Position numbers and translations under genes: made by a program. The notes below the pieces were generated by a model. The model was not told where the DNA came from and ran no database searches. It saw only the letters and a program-made list of their open reading frames with translations. From Leuconostoc fallax KCTC 3537 (GTDB taxonomy: Bacteria; Bacillota; Bacilli; Lactobacillales; Lactobacillaceae), in NCBI RefSeq assembly GCF_000165675.1, contig NZ_AEIZ01000015.1, positions 248,001 through 312,000 of the forward strand: DNA of 64,000 nucleotides. Reading direction: 5' to 3'. This document shows positions 17,451 through 27,485 of the stretch, piece by piece (within the stretch, counting starts at the first letter, position 1; each line of letters opens with the position of its first letter).

Positions 17451-17482
17451 AAAAGACGCTGAGTTGCTTCAGACGTCTTTTT
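17451..17482 (-). terminator. Terminator after metF
   Basis: Stem AAAAGACG/CGTCTTTT with an inner CTGA/TCAG helix and a T-run on the minus strand, overlapping the metF stop. Confidence 0.75.
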
Positions 17483-18317
17483 AAACAATAGCTGTTAATA
17501 ATTTTTGTAAATGATTCGCTTGATTCATCGAAAAAATATGAATGCCATCTACATCATGCGCAATGAGTGCTTTGATTTGTTGTGCAGCATAGTCGATACC
17601 AGCCATTTCTAATTGTGATGCTGACTGATGTTTACTCATCAGTGTCATTAATTGGTCTGGTACAGGCTGCCCCGTCATTTTAGGCACCCACTTTAATTGT
17701 TCAGCATTAGTAATTGGCATAATGCCGGCAACAATAGGAACTTGAATATCATGTTGTCTGAGTAATTCAACGACACGCAAAAAGTCACGATTATCAAAAA
17801 ACATCTGTGAAATGAAAAAATCAGTTCCTGCTGCTATTTTGGCCTCTACATTTTCCAAACCTTTTTTCGGATTATCTAAAATGTGTTGGGGATGAATGGC
17901 TGCGCCGACACAAATATCATGTGTTGCTTTAATGGTTTCAATTAATGCAACACTTGAAGTAAATGATCCTGATTCAGCTTCACCATCACCGCGTATGACT
18001 AAAAGATTCTGGATACCTTGTTGCACTAAATGGCTTAATTGATCTGGTAATGTATGTGGTGTTTGTCCAACGGCTGGTAAATGTTGCAACACAGGCATAT
18101 GATATTGCATTTGAATATGATGCGCCAGTTGTGCAACGCCGTCATCAGATGTTCCCATATGATTTGTTATGCTGACATAATCAATCGGTAGCTGATTCAA
18201 ATCCAATGCTGACAATACCATACTGGCACTCATATGATTTTGACTGTTACTTTGCGGTGAAAGTTCAACTGATATTAACGGCCGGGTTGTTAATTGGTAA
18301 TATGCACTAATTTTCAT
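17481..18317 (-). CDS. metF: Methylenetetrahydrofolate reductase
   Basis: 278 residues, (beta-alpha)8 barrel. Seen: SVELSPQ near the start, YVSITNHMG, LLVIRGDGEAESG (FAD/folate region), VGAAIHPQHI, FISQMFFDNRDFLRVVELL, VPIVAGIMPITNAEQL and a terminal GIHIFSMNQANHLQKLL. It reduces methylene-THF to methyl-THF for homocysteine methylation. It follows luxS by 6 bp, coupling methyl supply to the LuxS step that makes homocysteine; no methionine synthase is in the window. Confidence 0.9.
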   Translation of the reverse strand: MKISAYYQLTTRPLISVELSPQSNSQNHMSASMVLSALDLNQLPIDYVSITNHMGTSDDGVAQLAHHIQMQYHMPVLQHLPAVGQTPHTLPDQLSHLVQQGIQNLLVIRGDGEAESGSFTSSVALIETIKATHDICVGAAIHPQHILDNPKKGLENVEAKIAAGTDFFISQMFFDNRDFLRVVELLRQHDIQVPIVAGIMPITNAEQLKWVPKMTGQPVPDQLMTLMSKHQSASQLEMAGIDYAAQQIKALIAHDVDGIHIFSMNQANHLQKLLTAIV

Positions 18318-18323
18318 AAAAAA

Positions 18324-18794
18324 TTAGACAATATGACGTTCGAAAGGATCTGAGCTAATTCCCTCCGACAAGATTAATTTTGCCCATTCTTTAGCAGAGA
18401 AAAGACTATGGTCTTTATAATTACCACAACTTTCAATATAAGCTGCTGGTACTTCAGTAATTTCATCACTTGCAATTTTTTCAAGTACTTTTTTCATCAC
18501 TTTGGCTAATTCTTCAGGAGAATACGTTACCCAACTAATTAAATGAAATCCTGTACGACAACCAAATGGTGACATATCAATAATACCATCCAATTCGTCA
18601 CGCACTAAGCCAGCGAATAAATGTTCCAGAGTATGTAAACCACCTGTTTCAATCGATGTTTCATTAGGTTGTACCAAGCGAACATCGTAATTCGCAATTG
18701 AACCACCTTGTGGTCCTTGTTGCTCTTCAATCAACCGCACATAAGGTGCTAAAACTTTAGTATGATCTAATGTAAAACTTTCAACTTCTGCCAT
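18324..18794 (-). CDS. luxS: S-ribosylhomocysteine lyase LuxS
   Basis: 156 residues, full family length. Metal ligands His54 and His58 in HTLEH and Cys123 in [10 protein letters not shown]; catalytic-region Cys79 in [12 protein letters not shown]. It splits S-ribosylhomocysteine into homocysteine and the AI-2 precursor. Forms an operon with metF. No ribosome-binding site is evident just before the ATG, although an AGGAG lies about 40 bp upstream. No AI-2 receptor genes are nearby, so its recycling role is the safer reading. Confidence 0.95.
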
Positions 18795-23305: not shown

Positions 23306-23755
23306 ATGACTGAACAGCAAGTACCGCACACAACGATGAGATTTCAAAGTTTCACAGATGCGATGATGCAAGAAAATAATGTTTTAATTGGTATTTCAGA
23401 ATTAGCCAAAGCCACTGGTGTAACCCCTGCTCAATTACGCTATTGGTTAGCACAAGGTTATATTCAAAGTGCCGGTGAAGATAAGAAAAATAAATTCACT
23501 TTTAGTACCGTATTTAAAGTACGTAGTATCAAAATTTTCCAAAGTGAGGGCTACACGCTTGCTGCTGCAGCTAAGCATGCTGCTCAATATTCAACATTAG
23601 CGCATAAAATCAAGCAAATTATTTCCGATAGATTGATAAGTGTTAATGAAGATGGTAGTGATGTCATCATTGATTTTGGACCTTTTGACCCCAATCCCGA
23701 TCATCATCTAATTGCTAGAGTAGCAACAGATAAAACAACTTTTGAACTCAATTAA
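23306..23755 (+). CDS. MerR-like transcriptional regulator
   Basis: 149 residues from the ATG that follows TTGGAGG. The HTH ISELAKATGVTPAQLRYWLAQGYIQ (about residues 30-55) is preceded by 25 extra residues and followed by a short helix with SEGYTLAAAAKHAAQYS. The C-terminal about 50 residues (DGSDVIIDFGPFDPNPDHH) carry no recognisable ligand domain or metal-binding cysteines. Divergent from the DHA2 exporter, it is its likely regulator. Confidence 0.8.
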   Translation: MTEQQVPHTTMRFQSFTDAMMQENNVLIGISELAKATGVTPAQLRYWLAQGYIQSAGEDKKNKFTFSTVFKVRSIKIFQSEGYTLAAAAKHAAQYSTLAHKIKQIISDRLISVNEDGSDVIIDFGPFDPNPDHHLIARVATDKTTFELN

Positions 23756-23778: not shown

Positions 23779-23808
23779 TTGACGGCTGATCTGTTTATAG
23801 CGTATATT
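23779..23808 (+). promoter_or_regulatory. Promoter of the cysteine operon
   Basis: TTGACG (23779-23784), an 18-base spacer and TATATT (23803-23808); initiation would fall about 20 bases before the leader-peptide ATG. Confidence 0.6.
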
Positions 23809-23836
23809 AATAGCAATTATTAATGAGGAGTTAACT

Positions 23837-23911
23837 ATGGCACCCAAATATACTATATTTTATTCTGCTTGCTGCAGTACGACACGTTTTCGATGTTGTA
23901 CTGCTTATTGA
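23837..23911 (+). CDS. Cysteine-rich leader peptide (24 residues)
   Basis: Small frame with a strong site (GAGGAG, 7 bases before the ATG). The peptide begins MAPKYTIFYSA and carries Cys at positions 12, 13, 20 and 21: two TGC TGC and TGT TGT pairs among 24 codons. The Cys codons sit in the arms of a hairpin (23874-23884 / 23894-23904). A strong intrinsic terminator follows, and then the three-gene cysteine operon. This is the organisation of ribosome-mediated attenuation, with ribosome stalling at Cys codons as the sensor of Cys-tRNA. It is not conserved evidence but a clear pattern in the sequence. Confidence 0.75.
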   Translation: MAPKYTIFYSACCSTTRFRCCTAY

Positions 23912-23990
23912 GCATGAACTATTTGGGTAAACATCATCCGATAGTTGGCTTGTTTTAAAAGCAGACCAATTATTGAAAGCGTAAAAATTC
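23842..23990 (+). promoter_or_regulatory. Structured leader / attenuator of the cysteine operon
   Basis: ACCCAAATA (23842-23850) pairs with TATTTGGGT (23920-23928), enclosing the 11-bp hairpin 23874-23884 / 23894-23904 that holds the Cys codons. Further on, ATAGTTGG (23941-23948) pairs with CCAATTAT (23966-23973). A competing pairing, TCTGCTT (23864-23870) with AAGCAGA (23959-23965), bridges from just before the first Cys codons. No T-box TGGNACC bulge is present. Confidence 0.6.
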
Positions 23991-24014
23991 TAGCGAATTT
24001 TTGCGCTTTTTCTT
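23978..24014 (+). terminator. Intrinsic terminator in the cysteine-operon leader
   Basis: 13-bp stem (23978-23990 / 23995-24007) with one G-U pair and a TAGC loop, followed by a T-rich tract to 24014. It lies 29 bases upstream of the first gene, so it must be bypassed for operon expression. Confidence 0.85.
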
Positions 24015-24042
24015 TACCCTTTTTAATGAAAGAAGGACAACT

Positions 24043-24957
24043 ATGCTAGTCAAAGATACCTCACAACTCATTGGTCATACACCATTAATTGATTTACAAA
24101 TCGATATACCCAATCACAGCAGAATATTTGCAAAGTTAGAGATGTTCAACCCTGGTGGTAGCATCAAAGATCGTCTTGGTCAATTTCTTATTCAAGATGG
24201 CCTCAATCGGCAATTAATTCATGACGGCACAACTATTATCGAACCTACAGCTGGAAATACCGGTATTGGTCTGGCTTTAGCCGCACAACAGTACCATTTA
24301 CCAACAATTTTAGTCGTACCCGAAAAATTTAGTTATGAAAAACAACAACTCATGCAAGCTTTAGGTGCAAAAATAGTCAATACACCATCAAAAGATGGCA
24401 TAAAAGGCGCTATTGCTAAAGCAAAATCACTACATGCTATGTTGCCTAACAGCTATTTGCCAATGCAATTCACCAATCCCGCTAACCCTGAAACTTATTA
24501 CCAAACTATTGCGCCAGAAATCGCAGAAGATCTAAAGGATATACCTATTACAGCCTTTGTAGCAGGTGCTGGTAGTGGCGGTACTTTTACGGGCATTGCA
24601 AAATACTTTAATGAACACAATAGTCATATTCAAAATATCGCTGTTGAACCTGAGGGATCAATTTTAAATGGTGGTAAACCGCATGCCCATCGCACAGAAG
24701 GCATTGGTGTTGAATTTATCCCACCGTTCTTTAAAAATATTCGTATTGATCAAACGTTGACTATCAGTGATGCCGATGCTTTTTATCAAGTACGTTCTGT
24801 CGCAAAGCAATTAGGTCTTTTTATTGGTAGTTCAAGTGGTGCAGCACTGGCAGCAAGTCTAAAAATGGCCGAAACACTACCTGATCATAGTCATATCGTG
24901 ACAATTTTCCCAGATAGCAGTGAACGCTATATGAGCGAAAATATCTATGCAAAATAA
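24043..24957 (+). CDS. PLP-dependent cysteine synthase / cystathionine beta-synthase-type enzyme
   Basis: 304 residues from the ATG after AGAAGGACA; the longer upstream frame starts inside the terminator and is spurious. PLP lysine Lys42 in NPGGSIKDR, phosphate/substrate loop TAGNTGIG, and [11 protein letters not shown]. No C-terminal CBS domains. In lactobacilli the same trio (cysK-like, ctl, cysE) makes cystathionine from O-acetylserine and homocysteine, as B. subtilis MccA does, so reverse transsulfuration is as likely as direct sulfide assimilation. First gene of the leader-controlled operon. Confidence 0.9.
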
Positions 24958-24970
24958 AAAGGAGTCAATC

Positions 24971-26110
24971 ATGAAATTTAACACACAATTAATCCACGGT
25001 GGCATTAGCTCGGATGTAACAACTGGTGCTGTTTCTGTCCCAATTTACATGGCGTCTACTTTTAAACAAACTAAAATCGGTCAAGCTAAATATGAATATT
25101 CACGTTCCGGTAATCCAACACGTGAAGCAGTCGAAAAACTAATTGCTCAATTAGAAAATGGTGATGCTGGTTTTGCCTTTGCTTCAGGATCTGCAGCAAT
25201 CAGTACTGTTTTCACACTATTCTCATCAGGCGACCATATTATTGTTGGTAATGATGTCTATGGCGGGACATTCCGTTTAATCGATAATGTTTTGAAACGC
25301 ATGGGTCTTACCTTTACAGTAGTTGATACGCGTGACTTATCAGCAGTACAAGCAGCTATAAATGACCACACTGTTGCCATTTATTTTGAAACACCAACTA
25401 ATCCCTTACTCCGTATTACCGATATTAACGCTATTACAACTATTGCCAAACAACACCATCTATTAAGTATCGTGGATAATACATTTGCTTCGCCTTATAT
25501 CCAAAAACCACTGAACTTAGGTGCTGATATTGTGATTCATAGCGCTTCAAAATATCTTGGTGGTCACAGTGATTTAATTGCTGGTTTAGTCGTCACAAAA
25601 ACCGCAACAATTAGTCAAAAAATTGGCTACTTGCAAAATGCAATTGGTGCAATCTTGGCACCGCAAGAAAGTTGGCTATTACAACGTGGTATCAAAACAC
25701 TTGGACTACGCATGCAAGCCCATCAAAATAATGCGCAAAGTATCTTTAATTATTTAAAGCAACGTCCTGAGGTAGCTCATATCTATTATCCAGGCAATCC
25801 AGAGCATGCGGACTATGCCCTTGCAAAACAACAAATGGTTGGTTTTGGTGCAATGATTGCCTTTGAATTGCAACCCGGTTATGACGCTGAAGCTTTTGTA
25901 GAAAACTTACAGCTCATCACCTTGGCTGAAAGTCTGGGTGCTTTGGAAAGTTTGATTGAGATCCCAGCAAAAATGACACACGGTGCTATTCCCCGCGCAA
26001 TACGATTAGAAAATGGTATTCGAGATGAGCTTATTCGTCTCTCCGTCGGCGTAGAGGATAGCAGTGATTTACTGGCTGATTTGACACATGCTTTTGATCA
26101 AATCATTTAA
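24971..26110 (+). CDS. Cystathionine gamma-lyase / gamma-synthase family enzyme
   Basis: 379 residues from the ATG after AAAAAGGAGT. Fold-type I PLP enzyme: Lys194 in SASKYLGGHSD binds PLP, with YEYSRSGNPT, FASGSAAIST and SLGALESLIEIPAKMTH. These motifs do not separate lyase (MccB) from synthase (MetB). The CBS-like and CysE neighbours favour cystathionine gamma-lyase giving cysteine from homocysteine, which LuxS could supply. 14 bp after the first gene and 13 bp before cysE. Confidence 0.9.
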   Translation: MKFNTQLIHGGISSDVTTGAVSVPIYMASTFKQTKIGQAKYEYSRSGNPTREAVEKLIAQLENGDAGFAFASGSAAISTVFTLFSSGDHIIVGNDVYGGTFRLIDNVLKRMGLTFTVVDTRDLSAVQAAINDHTVAIYFETPTNPLLRITDINAITTIAKQHHLLSIVDNTFASPYIQKPLNLGADIVIHSASKYLGGHSDLIAGLVVTKTATISQKIGYLQNAIGAILAPQESWLLQRGIKTLGLRMQAHQNNAQSIFNYLKQRPEVAHIYYPGNPEHADYALAKQQMVGFGAMIAFELQPGYDAEAFVENLQLITLAESLGALESLIEIPAKMTHGAIPRAIRLENGIRDELIRLSVGVEDSSDLLADLTHAFDQII

Positions 26111-26123
26111 TACTGGAGGTCTC

Positions 26124-26662
26124 ATGTTTGCATCAGCTAAATCTATATTGAAGCGGGATCCAGCTGCACATAGCCTGCTCACAGTCTTATTAACCTACCC
26201 TGGTTTACATGCGCTTTGGTACCATCGATTAGCCCACTGGCTCTATAAACATCATTTATTTTTATTAGCTGAAATAATTAGCCGATGGTCGACTAAAAGG
26301 AACGGTATTGTCATTTCACCTGGTGCGCAAATTGGCAAACGTGTTTTTATTGACCATGGTATCGGTGTTGTCATTGGCGAAACAGCAATTATTGAAGATG
26401 ATGTTACTATTTTACATGGTGTCACCTTGGGCTCACGGCAATCACATCATGGTCAACGCCATCCCAAAATTAAACGTGGTAGTTTTATTGGTGCACATGC
26501 ACAAGTATTGGGTAATATCACGATTGGTAGCAATAGTAAAATTGGCGCAAATGCTGTTGTCTTACAAGACATTCCAGATAATAGTACTGCCGTCGGTAAT
26601 CCTGCCTATATTGTTAAAGCCAAACCAGTAAAAATAAAAAAATCACCAATATTCATTGGTGA
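26124..26662 (+). CDS. cysE: Serine O-acetyltransferase CysE (frame uncertain at the end)
   Basis: Left-handed beta-helix acetyltransferase of the short type: N-terminal helices with WYHRLAHWLYKH, then hexapeptide repeats IVISPGAQIGKRVFIDHGIGVVIGETAIIEDDV, and GVTLGSR and AIRVGNP-equivalent AVGNPAYIVKAKP. Its catalytic His is in the DHG motif. The raw frame runs through the terminator hairpin to 26783. One extra A in the A5/A7 tract at 26629-26641 would instead stop it at 26660-26662 (179 residues). It supplies O-acetylserine to the first enzyme. Start follows TGGAGGT. Confidence 0.88.
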
Positions 26663-26663
26663 T
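26642..26663. terminator. Bidirectional terminator between cysE and the ThiD-like gene
   Basis: 9-bp perfect stem ATCACCAAT/ATTGGTGAT with a 4-base loop, flanked by A7 and T7 tracts, between convergent genes. Confidence 0.85.
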
Positions 26664-26681
26664 TTTTTTATTCTCATCAAA

Positions 26682-27485
26682 TTATTTTTGAATTGCCCAA
26701 TGATTAATAGGACCAAATTTATGGCCAACTTCAATTTCGTTTGCAATAGCATTATGTGTTGCTTTCTTTGCAGTCCTAATTGACTGCTCAACACTTTCGC
26801 CTTTGGCCAGACATGCCGTAATAGTTGCTGAAAGTGTATCTCCGGTACCATTAATACGTTGTGTCTTGATAAATGGTTCGGATAATGTAAAATGTCGACC
26901 ATCTGCTAACAAAACATAATCAACTACTATTTCTTGATCGTCGTTATCATGACGACCCTTTATCATTACATTTGGAACGCCTAACTTTTGAATACGCAAT
27001 GCAGCTGTTTCAATATCTTGCATTGACATAATCTGCATGTCTGCTAAAATTTGTGCTTCATAGAAATTAGGTGTCGTAACGGTTGCTAGTGGTAATAATT
27101 GTTGCTTAAGCGTATCAATGGCTTCTACTTCTAACAAACGATTACCATGTTTAGTTGTAATAACAGGATCAACCACAAGTGGTCCAAAATCAACGCGTTG
27201 ATAGTTCTCTACAACAGTATGCATAATTTCAGTGTTAGCTAGCATGCCCGTTTTAGTTGCTCGGATATGAAAATCATCAGCTAAAGCATTAAACTGTGCA
27301 GTAATAAATTCAGTGGGCATATTTTGTACAGCATGAATACCATAAGAATTCCCTGCTACTGCAGCTGTTAAAATTGTCATACCATATGTGTTTTGCACAA
27401 AGAAACTGTGTAGATCAGCTTGAGCCCCCGCTGACCCATCACTATCTGAACCTGCAATTGTTACAACCTGTATTTCTTCTACCAT
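26682..27485 (-). CDS. PfkB/ThiD-family kinase (hydroxymethylpyrimidine or pyridoxine kinase)
   Basis: 267 residues. Starts VVTIAGSDSDGSAGAQADLH, followed by TKTGMLAN, VVDPVITTKHGNRLL and the C-terminal anion-hole motif RINGTGDTLSATITA with the catalytic Asp. These are shared by ThiD and the ThiD-like pyridoxine kinases of Firmicutes (PdxK), which sequence alone does not separate. No thiamine genes are adjacent. Convergent with the cysteine operon, both of whose lyases need PLP, which makes pyridoxal salvage attractive but unproven. Confidence 0.85.
   Translation of the reverse strand: MVEEIQVVTIAGSDSDGSAGAQADLHSFFVQNTYGMTILTAAVAGNSYGIHAVQNMPTEFITAQFNALADDFHIRATKTGMLANTEIMHTVVENYQRVDFGPLVVDPVITTKHGNRLLEVEAIDTLKQQLLPLATVTTPNFYEAQILADMQIMSMQDIETAALRIQKLGVPNVMIKGRHDNDDQEIVVDYVLLADGRHFTLSEPFIKTQRINGTGDTLSATITACLAKGESVEQSIRTAKKATHNAIANEIEVGHKFGPINHWAIQK

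Follow-up and report, generated by a model that had tools for sequence, protein, structure and literature searches.

The cysteine operon of Leuconostoc fallax KCTC 3537 is very probably controlled by a ribosome-mediated transcription attenuator of the trp/his type, which, judged from sequence comparison and modelling, would sense the charging of tRNA-Cys and control cysK-ctl-cysE. The operon lies in a stretch of 64,000 nt (contig NZ_AEIZ01000015.1, positions 248,001 to 312,000 of the forward strand), referred to here as the window, and its features are collected in Table 1. We are highly confident of the type of mechanism and moderately so of the precise antiterminator (23883-23906 with 23959-23983), and the predicted parts, namely the ORF, its Cys codons, the hairpin, the antiterminator, the terminator and the positional fit between them, come from sequence comparison and computation. 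An earlier sequence-only reading of the same DNA had proposed Cys-codon attenuation of this operon, and that core inference is supported by a conserved frame, by invariant Cys codons and by the RNA structures.

Table 1. Features of the cysteine operon and its leader region, in positions of the window
Feature	Position	Strand	Basis or remark
Sigma-70-like promoter, TTGACG-N18-TATATT	23779..23808	+	10/12 box matches
Shine-Dalgarno site GAGGAG of the leader ORF	23825..23830	+	AGGAG invariant in 13 leaders
Leader peptide ORF, 24 codons, MAPKYTIFYSACCSTTRFRCCTAY, TGA stop	23837..23911	+	Direct reading, alignment
Outer 9-bp helix 23842-23850 / 23920-23928 around the Cys hairpin	23842..23928	+	Window and gelidum-type species
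Cys12-Cys13 codons TGC TGC, predicted sensing/stall site	23870..23875	+	Invariant, 13 species; modelled A-site optimum
Cys hairpin (segments 1:2), 23875-23886 / 23891-23903	23875..23903	+	12 bp, one bulged A; rivals the antiterminator
Antiterminator 5′ strand (segment 2), spanning loop and 3′ arm of the Cys hairpin	23883..23906	+	Alignment, covariation, duplex energy
Cys20-Cys21 codons TGT TGT, within the 3′ arm of the Cys hairpin	23894..23899	+	Invariant
Antiterminator 3′ strand (segment 3), reaching 8 nt into the terminator 5′ arm	23959..23983	+	Alignment, covariation, duplex energy
Intrinsic terminator 23976-23990 / 23995-24009 and T-run	23976..24015	+	Folding, alignment
cysK / cystathionine beta-synthase-like PLP enzyme (PF00291), operon gene 1	24043..24957	+	
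ctl, cystathionine gamma-lyase/synthase-like (PF01053)	24971..26110	+	
cysE/epsC, serine O-acetyltransferase, conserved part	26124..26636	+	

The promoter-like boxes, the GAGGAG site and the 24-residue frame with Cys at positions 12, 13, 20 and 21, all listed previously, were seen again on direct reading. The boxes consist of a −35-like TTGACG (23779-23784) and a −10-like TATATT (23803-23808) with an 18-nt spacer, and in other Leuconostoc species TTGACA-like and TATATT- or TATAGT-like boxes likewise stand upstream of the leader; a scan of the whole region gave promoter-like matches hardly more often than expected by chance. At the far end of the operon, the cysE frame (26126-26783, + strand) meets no stop ahead of a terminator-like hairpin near 26640-26670 and continues to 26783, overlapping a convergent thiD-like gene (26682-27485, − strand), and this run-on is either a genuine extension or a sequencing error. 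On the − strand, luxS and a metF-like gene are neighbours (17481-18794), and methionine-cycle genes are thus located ∼5 kb from the cysteine operon.

Conservation was studied in 19 Leuconostoc genomes, with the window cysK protein as the query for orthologue searches. Besides the window, the leader is present in all 12 genomes with cysK and in none of the 7 without it; one further match of the DNA search within the genus (G111, E 0.0075) was left out, only 34 nt near the terminator having been matched. The 12 operon-bearing genomes and the window's own sequence form the set of 13 used below, and the gene order cysK-ctl-cysE is common to the 12 genomes and L. paracasei. Leader, Cys codons and terminator show the same layout in 13/13 operon-bearing genomes examined, which is more than chance. 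A Cys frame is present in the leaders of relatives, and no Cys codon is mutated wherever the Leuconostoc operon and terminator occur, two findings on which the attenuation proposal could have failed. Moreover, the peptide core CCSTTRFRCCT, the Cys codons, the AGGAG and the ATG are invariant in the 13 sequences, and the first Cys is codon 12 from the aligned ATG in every one of them. Codons 2-11 are highly variable yet free of indels and the spacer past the ORF is rich in indels, which is the pattern of a translated leader. The upstream alignment had been suggested as a search for conserved Cys codons with compensatory stem changes, and it gave both: the Cys codons are invariant, and five terminator pairs are changed on both sides. 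In public genomes, the pattern CC-x-TTRFR-CC occurs in Leuconostoc and in scattered high-G+C and other taxa, and we take the scattered matches outside Leuconostoc as chance.

The leader RNA is strongly structured, with a folding energy of −64.7 kcal/mol compared with −37.1 ± 3.8 kcal/mol for dinucleotide shuffles (z −7.3). The hairpin previously described as carrying the Cys codons in its arms is found at 23875-23886 / 23891-23903, and its 12 pairs are formed in 100% of the cells of the 13-sequence alignment, with only two variable pairs, both of them A-U/G-U switches. The outer 9-bp helix around it exists in the window, as had been read, and is poorly kept outside gelidum-type species, so that we rejected it as a general element. 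The terminator before the cystathionine beta-synthase-like gene is likewise present; its stem had been given as 13 bp and comprises 15 pairs in the present alignment, all of them formed in 100% of cells in the 13 species, and the end of the stem is 33 nt from the cysK start.

Between these two hairpins, the antiterminator covers the G+C-rich base of the terminator, and its 23 pairs are formed in 90.8% of cells in the 13 sequences, compared with 32–45% when the partner is slid by 1-3 columns. The sequence-only reading had offered 23864-23870 with 23959-23965 as an example of an antiterminator, and this did not hold: the 5′ half is not conserved and would be under a ribosome stalled at Cys12, and the 3′ segment 23959-23965 pairs instead with the conserved 23883-23906, covarying at two pairs. 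The covariation score of the antiterminator is 0.225 compared with 0.185 in shuffles (0/500), but the two pairs in which both partners change (64-164 and 84-143) are no more than shuffles give (381/500). Column 64, the third base of Thr16, and column 84 are the only variable bases in the 5′ strand, and each changes with its antiterminator partner, from A-U to G-C and from C-G to U-A, respectively; the synonymous A to G change in Thr16 thus goes together with a U to C change in the terminator arm. Both covarying changes are found in the same four species, with rapi as the one unpaired exception at the second, and given this distribution each both-sides change may be a single event. Segment 2 is almost frozen because coding, hairpin and antiterminator are all served by it. 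The duplex energy of the antiterminator in the window is −23.4 kcal/mol (z −7.2 versus shuffles); the Leuconostoc median is −23.4 compared with −10.5 in dinucleotide shuffles (z −4.5), and that of other Lactobacillaceae is −24.1 compared with −11.4 (z −4.4), with p ≤ 0.005 in 39/52. Pairing of the antiterminator is mutually exclusive with the terminator and the leader hairpin in Leuconostoc and most other Lactobacillaceae.

These elements suggest the following course of events. When Cys-tRNA is ample, the ribosome would pass the tandem Cys codons, reach the stop codon and thereby occlude the 3′ arm of the Cys hairpin, so that the antiterminator would be incomplete and the terminator would end transcription ∼30 nt ahead of cysK. 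When Cys-tRNA is short, the ribosome would stall with Cys12 (or Cys13) in the A site and mask the 5′ arm of the Cys hairpin, leaving loop and 3′ arm (segment 2) free to pair with segment 3, and the resulting antiterminator would take the G+C-rich base of the terminator 5′ arm, so that polymerase would read through. Without any translation, the Cys hairpin would form and the terminator would remain free.

To model the position of the ribosome, we applied a mask that extended 15 nt upstream and 13 nt downstream from the first base of the A-site codon, and the stability of the terminator base was defined as the free energy lost when the six basal 3′ nucleotides of the terminator stay open. Folding in stalled and unstalled forms had been proposed as a check, and with these masks the terminator base is weakest when the A site holds the first Cys codon: in the window, the stability is ∼8.6 kcal/mol at most positions, 2.9 at Cys12, 5.9 at Cys13, and 8.4–8.6 with the ribosome at the second Cys pair or the stop codon. 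Over 66 Lactobacillaceae leaders, the median reaches its minimum, 4.2, precisely at the first Cys codon; it is ∼10 two to nine codons past it and mostly 6–7.5 upstream. Among 95 leaders, which are related so that the counts are not independent, the stalled value (from whichever of the first two Cys positions gives less) falls below the stop-codon value in 63 and exceeds it in 7. In the model, then, a stall at the sensing codons would free the antiterminator. The TGTTGT of the second Cys pair is complementary to the hairpin's Thr codons, ACR ACR. Because a modelled stall at Cys20-21 leaves the terminator intact (8.6 kcal/mol), this pair is probably retained for base pairing with them.

Even in the stalled state, the terminator base in the window is still favoured by 2.9 kcal/mol, and full-length equilibrium folding favours the terminator in every ribosome state, with values of ∼1.0 in nearly all. 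Since equilibrium folding predicts the terminator throughout, the switch must be kinetic and act during transcription, as other attenuators do; the stall itself and this kinetic termination decision are what we infer. Full-length equilibrium folding with ribosome masks was rejected as a switching test on account of these uniform values, which come partly from counting the upper stem, and terminator-base stability was used instead. A measure of how far the entire 5′ arm pairs in nascent RNA was also rejected, the contrast between stalled and stop positions being weak.

A stall could also come from the nascent peptide, with the CCSTTRFRCC core arresting the ribosome and perhaps sensing cysteine, thiol or redox, in place of slow decoding of Cys codons. 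The core is identical in 13 genomes and an Arg-rich sequence past the Cys run recurs in other genera, as such an arrest would have it. However, the core is no less conserved in nucleotides than in amino acids, and pairing is maintained at its variable bases, so that RNA structure suffices to explain its conservation; the residues after the Cys tandem vary by genus (GSRLMRP, VPRLSRY, LIPRVSV) while the tandem stays, and the first Cys codon is located where, in the model, a decoding stall works best. We therefore regard peptide-dependent arrest as improbable. There is an equally slim chance that the core, or its Arg-rich equivalents, adds a second signal to decoding, such as thiol/redox state or free cysteine, in which case tRNA-Cys charging would combine with peptide-dependent arrest or with an effect in trans.

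The attenuator of the window appears to belong to a widespread type. The survey looked for cysK orthologues in 251 Lactobacillaceae, 247 Lactobacillales and 349 Bacilli genomes. Upstream DNA was then taken from 66 Lactobacillaceae, 30 other Lactobacillales and 20 orthologues outside the order, and also from 9 paralogues, whose identity in the genome search was ∼40%. A strict rule, which required a start codon, a Shine-Dalgarno-like site, a length of 8-60 codons, CC and a position within 100-480 nt, gave a leader in 60/66 Lactobacillaceae, 24/30 other Lactobacillales, 1/9 paralogues and 1/20 orthologues outside the order, with shuffle means of 1.05, 0.20, 0.15 and 0.15, respectively. When the Shine-Dalgarno and distance limits were lifted, a Cys-tandem leader (CC or longer) was present in 66/66 Lactobacillaceae and 27/30 other Lactobacillales; the three leaderless orthologues (L154, L155 and L158) are from a single genus (g54) of another Lactobacillales family, and neither a Cys leader nor a leader-terminator was found upstream of their cysK. 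The leader peptides are widely divergent with the Cys tandem constant, as in MTQSMFNAINNCCRTTRVLRCSAC, MFNLTFVNASVCCCVPRLSRYTDCATQK, MILAHTYTNVCCCGSRLMRPTSWCAKIM and MAQRTVLIADCCCMVQNIAAYHFVMPINRPNF, and by our own tally they are spread over ∼15 Lactobacillaceae genera and 14 genera of five other families (∼29 genera, six families). An intrinsic terminator lies between leader ORF and first gene in 95/95 leaders accepted by the folding script, from which candidates without leader or terminator fell out. Hence, by sequence, the Cys-tandem attenuator is apparently order-wide in Lactobacillales.

The antiterminator probably differs in layout outside Lactobacillaceae. In these Lactobacillales, the direct antiterminator duplex was not significant in the shuffle test (z 0), and for Enterococcus-type and other leaders outside Lactobacillaceae (L145-L174) the direct test fails mostly, despite Cys codons and terminator. 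Alignment by eye suggests that in Enterococcus-type leaders the 3′ arm of the hairpin (GCAGCAUACC) may pair with the 5′ arm of the terminator (AGGUGCUGA). In Enterococcus faecalis NZ_CP143580.1 (L177:2274-2411), the leader peptide appears in the annotation as hypothetical protein WP_002355203.1, which is 45 aa long and whose residues 15-17 are CCC.

Several other arrangements were seen on the way. Short Cys-rich frames (MALKNNCCRVNCLVFI..., MELKNTCCLKNCLVFIQTKC and MNRNNNKLCCLIIDNYAVFSRIVCN) occur in L143, L139 and L136, respectively; the first two are alike and lie ∼465-472 nt upstream of a paralogous cysK, and the three may represent a further Cys leader that serves another cysteine operon. 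One genome of Bacilli outside Lactobacillales (G594, L179) has a CCC leader, MANSKNYVLIKDYCCCMLPISSIQIRHAY, ahead of cysK, which reflects either horizontal transfer, an older origin or a placement error. In genus g20 (L083, L084, L086 and L088), the leader starts ∼400–510 nt upstream of cysK, and extra DNA with repeated 'atagctatcagttttg...' separates the leader-terminator from the gene; this DNA may be a second control element or mobile repeats.

In the homologous operon of L. paracasei FAM18149, published expression varies with the supply of cysteine: RNA-seq showed cysE2-ctl1-cysK2 to be log2 2.9–3.2 higher in cysteine-deficient than in methionine-deficient medium (PMC6004538), a contrast other than that of presence and absence of cysteine in otherwise complete medium. 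That study found high 5′-UTR coverage resembling that of T-boxes, no T-box, and a terminator covering AAGGGCGCGAAA-N16-TTTCGCGCCCTT, and proposed premature termination by a mechanism 'yet to be discovered' (PMC6004538). Plasmid pFAM18149.25 of this strain has the exact motif 78 nt ahead of the gene; the leader MSQSMFNAINCCCRTTRFWRCSAC, whose start is preceded by GGAGG, lies upstream of the motif. The modelled stability of its terminator base has its minimum at the first Cys codon (9.2 compared with 13.9 kcal/mol). An antisense RNA was also reported at the 3′ end of the operon (PMC6004538), and this is not explained by the attenuation model. The operon is present on 32 Lacticaseibacillus plasmid records.

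T-box-like coverage at this operon (PMC6004538), together with the fact that T-box- and S-box-type elements control many Firmicutes Cys/Met genes, would suit a riboswitch that binds a metabolite or tRNA (a T-box, an S-box or some novel class), with a small ORF present by chance. We consider this very unlikely. Covariance models of the T-box and the SAM riboswitches (S-box, SMK) gave no match in the window and 20 other upstream regions, nor did any Rfam family at gathering score, and the weak sub-threshold matches near the leader belong to unrelated families; across Rfam, Pfam and NCBIfam, there was no matching family for leader RNA or peptide. Moreover, the published study found no T-box at the L. 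paracasei operon (PMC6004538), and from genus to genus the sequence and shape of the RNA change but the start codon, the frame and the Cys codons are retained. It is just as doubtful that the terminator is constitutive and promoter-proximal, with initiation set by a DNA-binding regulator and the Cys ORF incidental or a small functional peptide: a MerR-type gene (23309-23755) lies directly upstream in the window and LysR regulators control such pathways in streptococci and lactococci (PMC6004538), but the palindrome formerly proposed as a regulatory motif (Liu 2012, as cited in PMC6004538) coincides with the terminator stem, terminator, antiterminator and Cys ORF are conserved jointly, and the stretches retrieved from 12 Leuconostoc genomes did not have the MerR gene next to the operon, for which reason control by this neighbour was rejected.

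Ribosome-mediated attenuation at the Cys codons, the reading we prefer, would extend leader-peptide attenuation to cysteine in Lactobacillales. T-boxes, LysR or CymR regulators were previously thought to control cysteine genes in this order. For the FAM18149 operon, the leader offers a concrete and testable mechanism in the same strain as the published study (PMC6004538), and the Enterococcus faecalis 'hypothetical protein' would be explained as a leader peptide. The device moves with the operon on Lacticaseibacillus plasmids and is thus relevant to methionine-to-cysteine conversion and sulfur flavour in dairy strains, for which the leader would be a compact cysteine-responsive switch.

The sequence-only reading knew of no described Cys-codon attenuator in this group, which agrees with the open-access literature searched, where we found no description of Cys leaders in Lactobacillales; the kind itself is known elsewhere, in mycobacteria and Rhodobacterales. 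The Lactobacillales leaders are therefore apparently an undescribed family of a known kind, and a 2013 survey lists His, Leu, Thr and Trp as the only attenuators in Rfam (PMC3766115). Cys-codon leaders have been published for mycobacteria and other actinobacteria, where, in the accounts given by PMC1262725 and by Canestrari 2020 as cited in PMC9094748, Cys-rich short ORFs upstream of cys operons are cysteine-responsive. The mycobacterial ORFs are leaderless according to the latter citation, whereas here a Shine-Dalgarno site and a predicted 5′ untranslated stretch precede the ORF; no terminator was found for the actinobacterial leaders (PMC1262725), in contrast to the clear intrinsic terminator and predicted antiterminator here. 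In Rhodobacterales, uORFC-8-2 upstream of cysS was predicted by its authors, on computational grounds only, to act by ribosome-mediated attenuation (PMC8632094). By its description, this uORF resembles the present leader in its two tandem Cys codons (positions 14-15), the hairpin holding them and the intrinsic terminator, and differs in its alphaproteobacterial host and its gene, that of cysteinyl-tRNA synthetase and not cysK (PMC8632094). The histidine leaders of hisZ/hisS* in Bacilli are also a case of leader-peptide attenuation replacing the T-box in Firmicutes, with a different amino acid and different genes (PMC2965389). The Cys-specific T-box of the L. paracasei FAM18149 glnP2 operon senses tRNA-Cys charging via premature termination (PMC6004538), as proposed here; however, a T-box, of which none was found in the window, binds uncharged tRNA directly and without translation. 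The type itself is exemplified by the trp, his, leu, thr and phe leaders of Proteobacteria, which share with the present leader a short ORF, tandem codons for the product amino acid, alternative 1:2, 2:3 and 3:4 helices and a terminator before gene 1. Compared with these, the leader described here has no Rfam match, is specific for cysteine by its codons and belongs to Lactobacillales, and its predicted antiterminator takes up no more of the terminator 5′ arm than its basal 8 nt.
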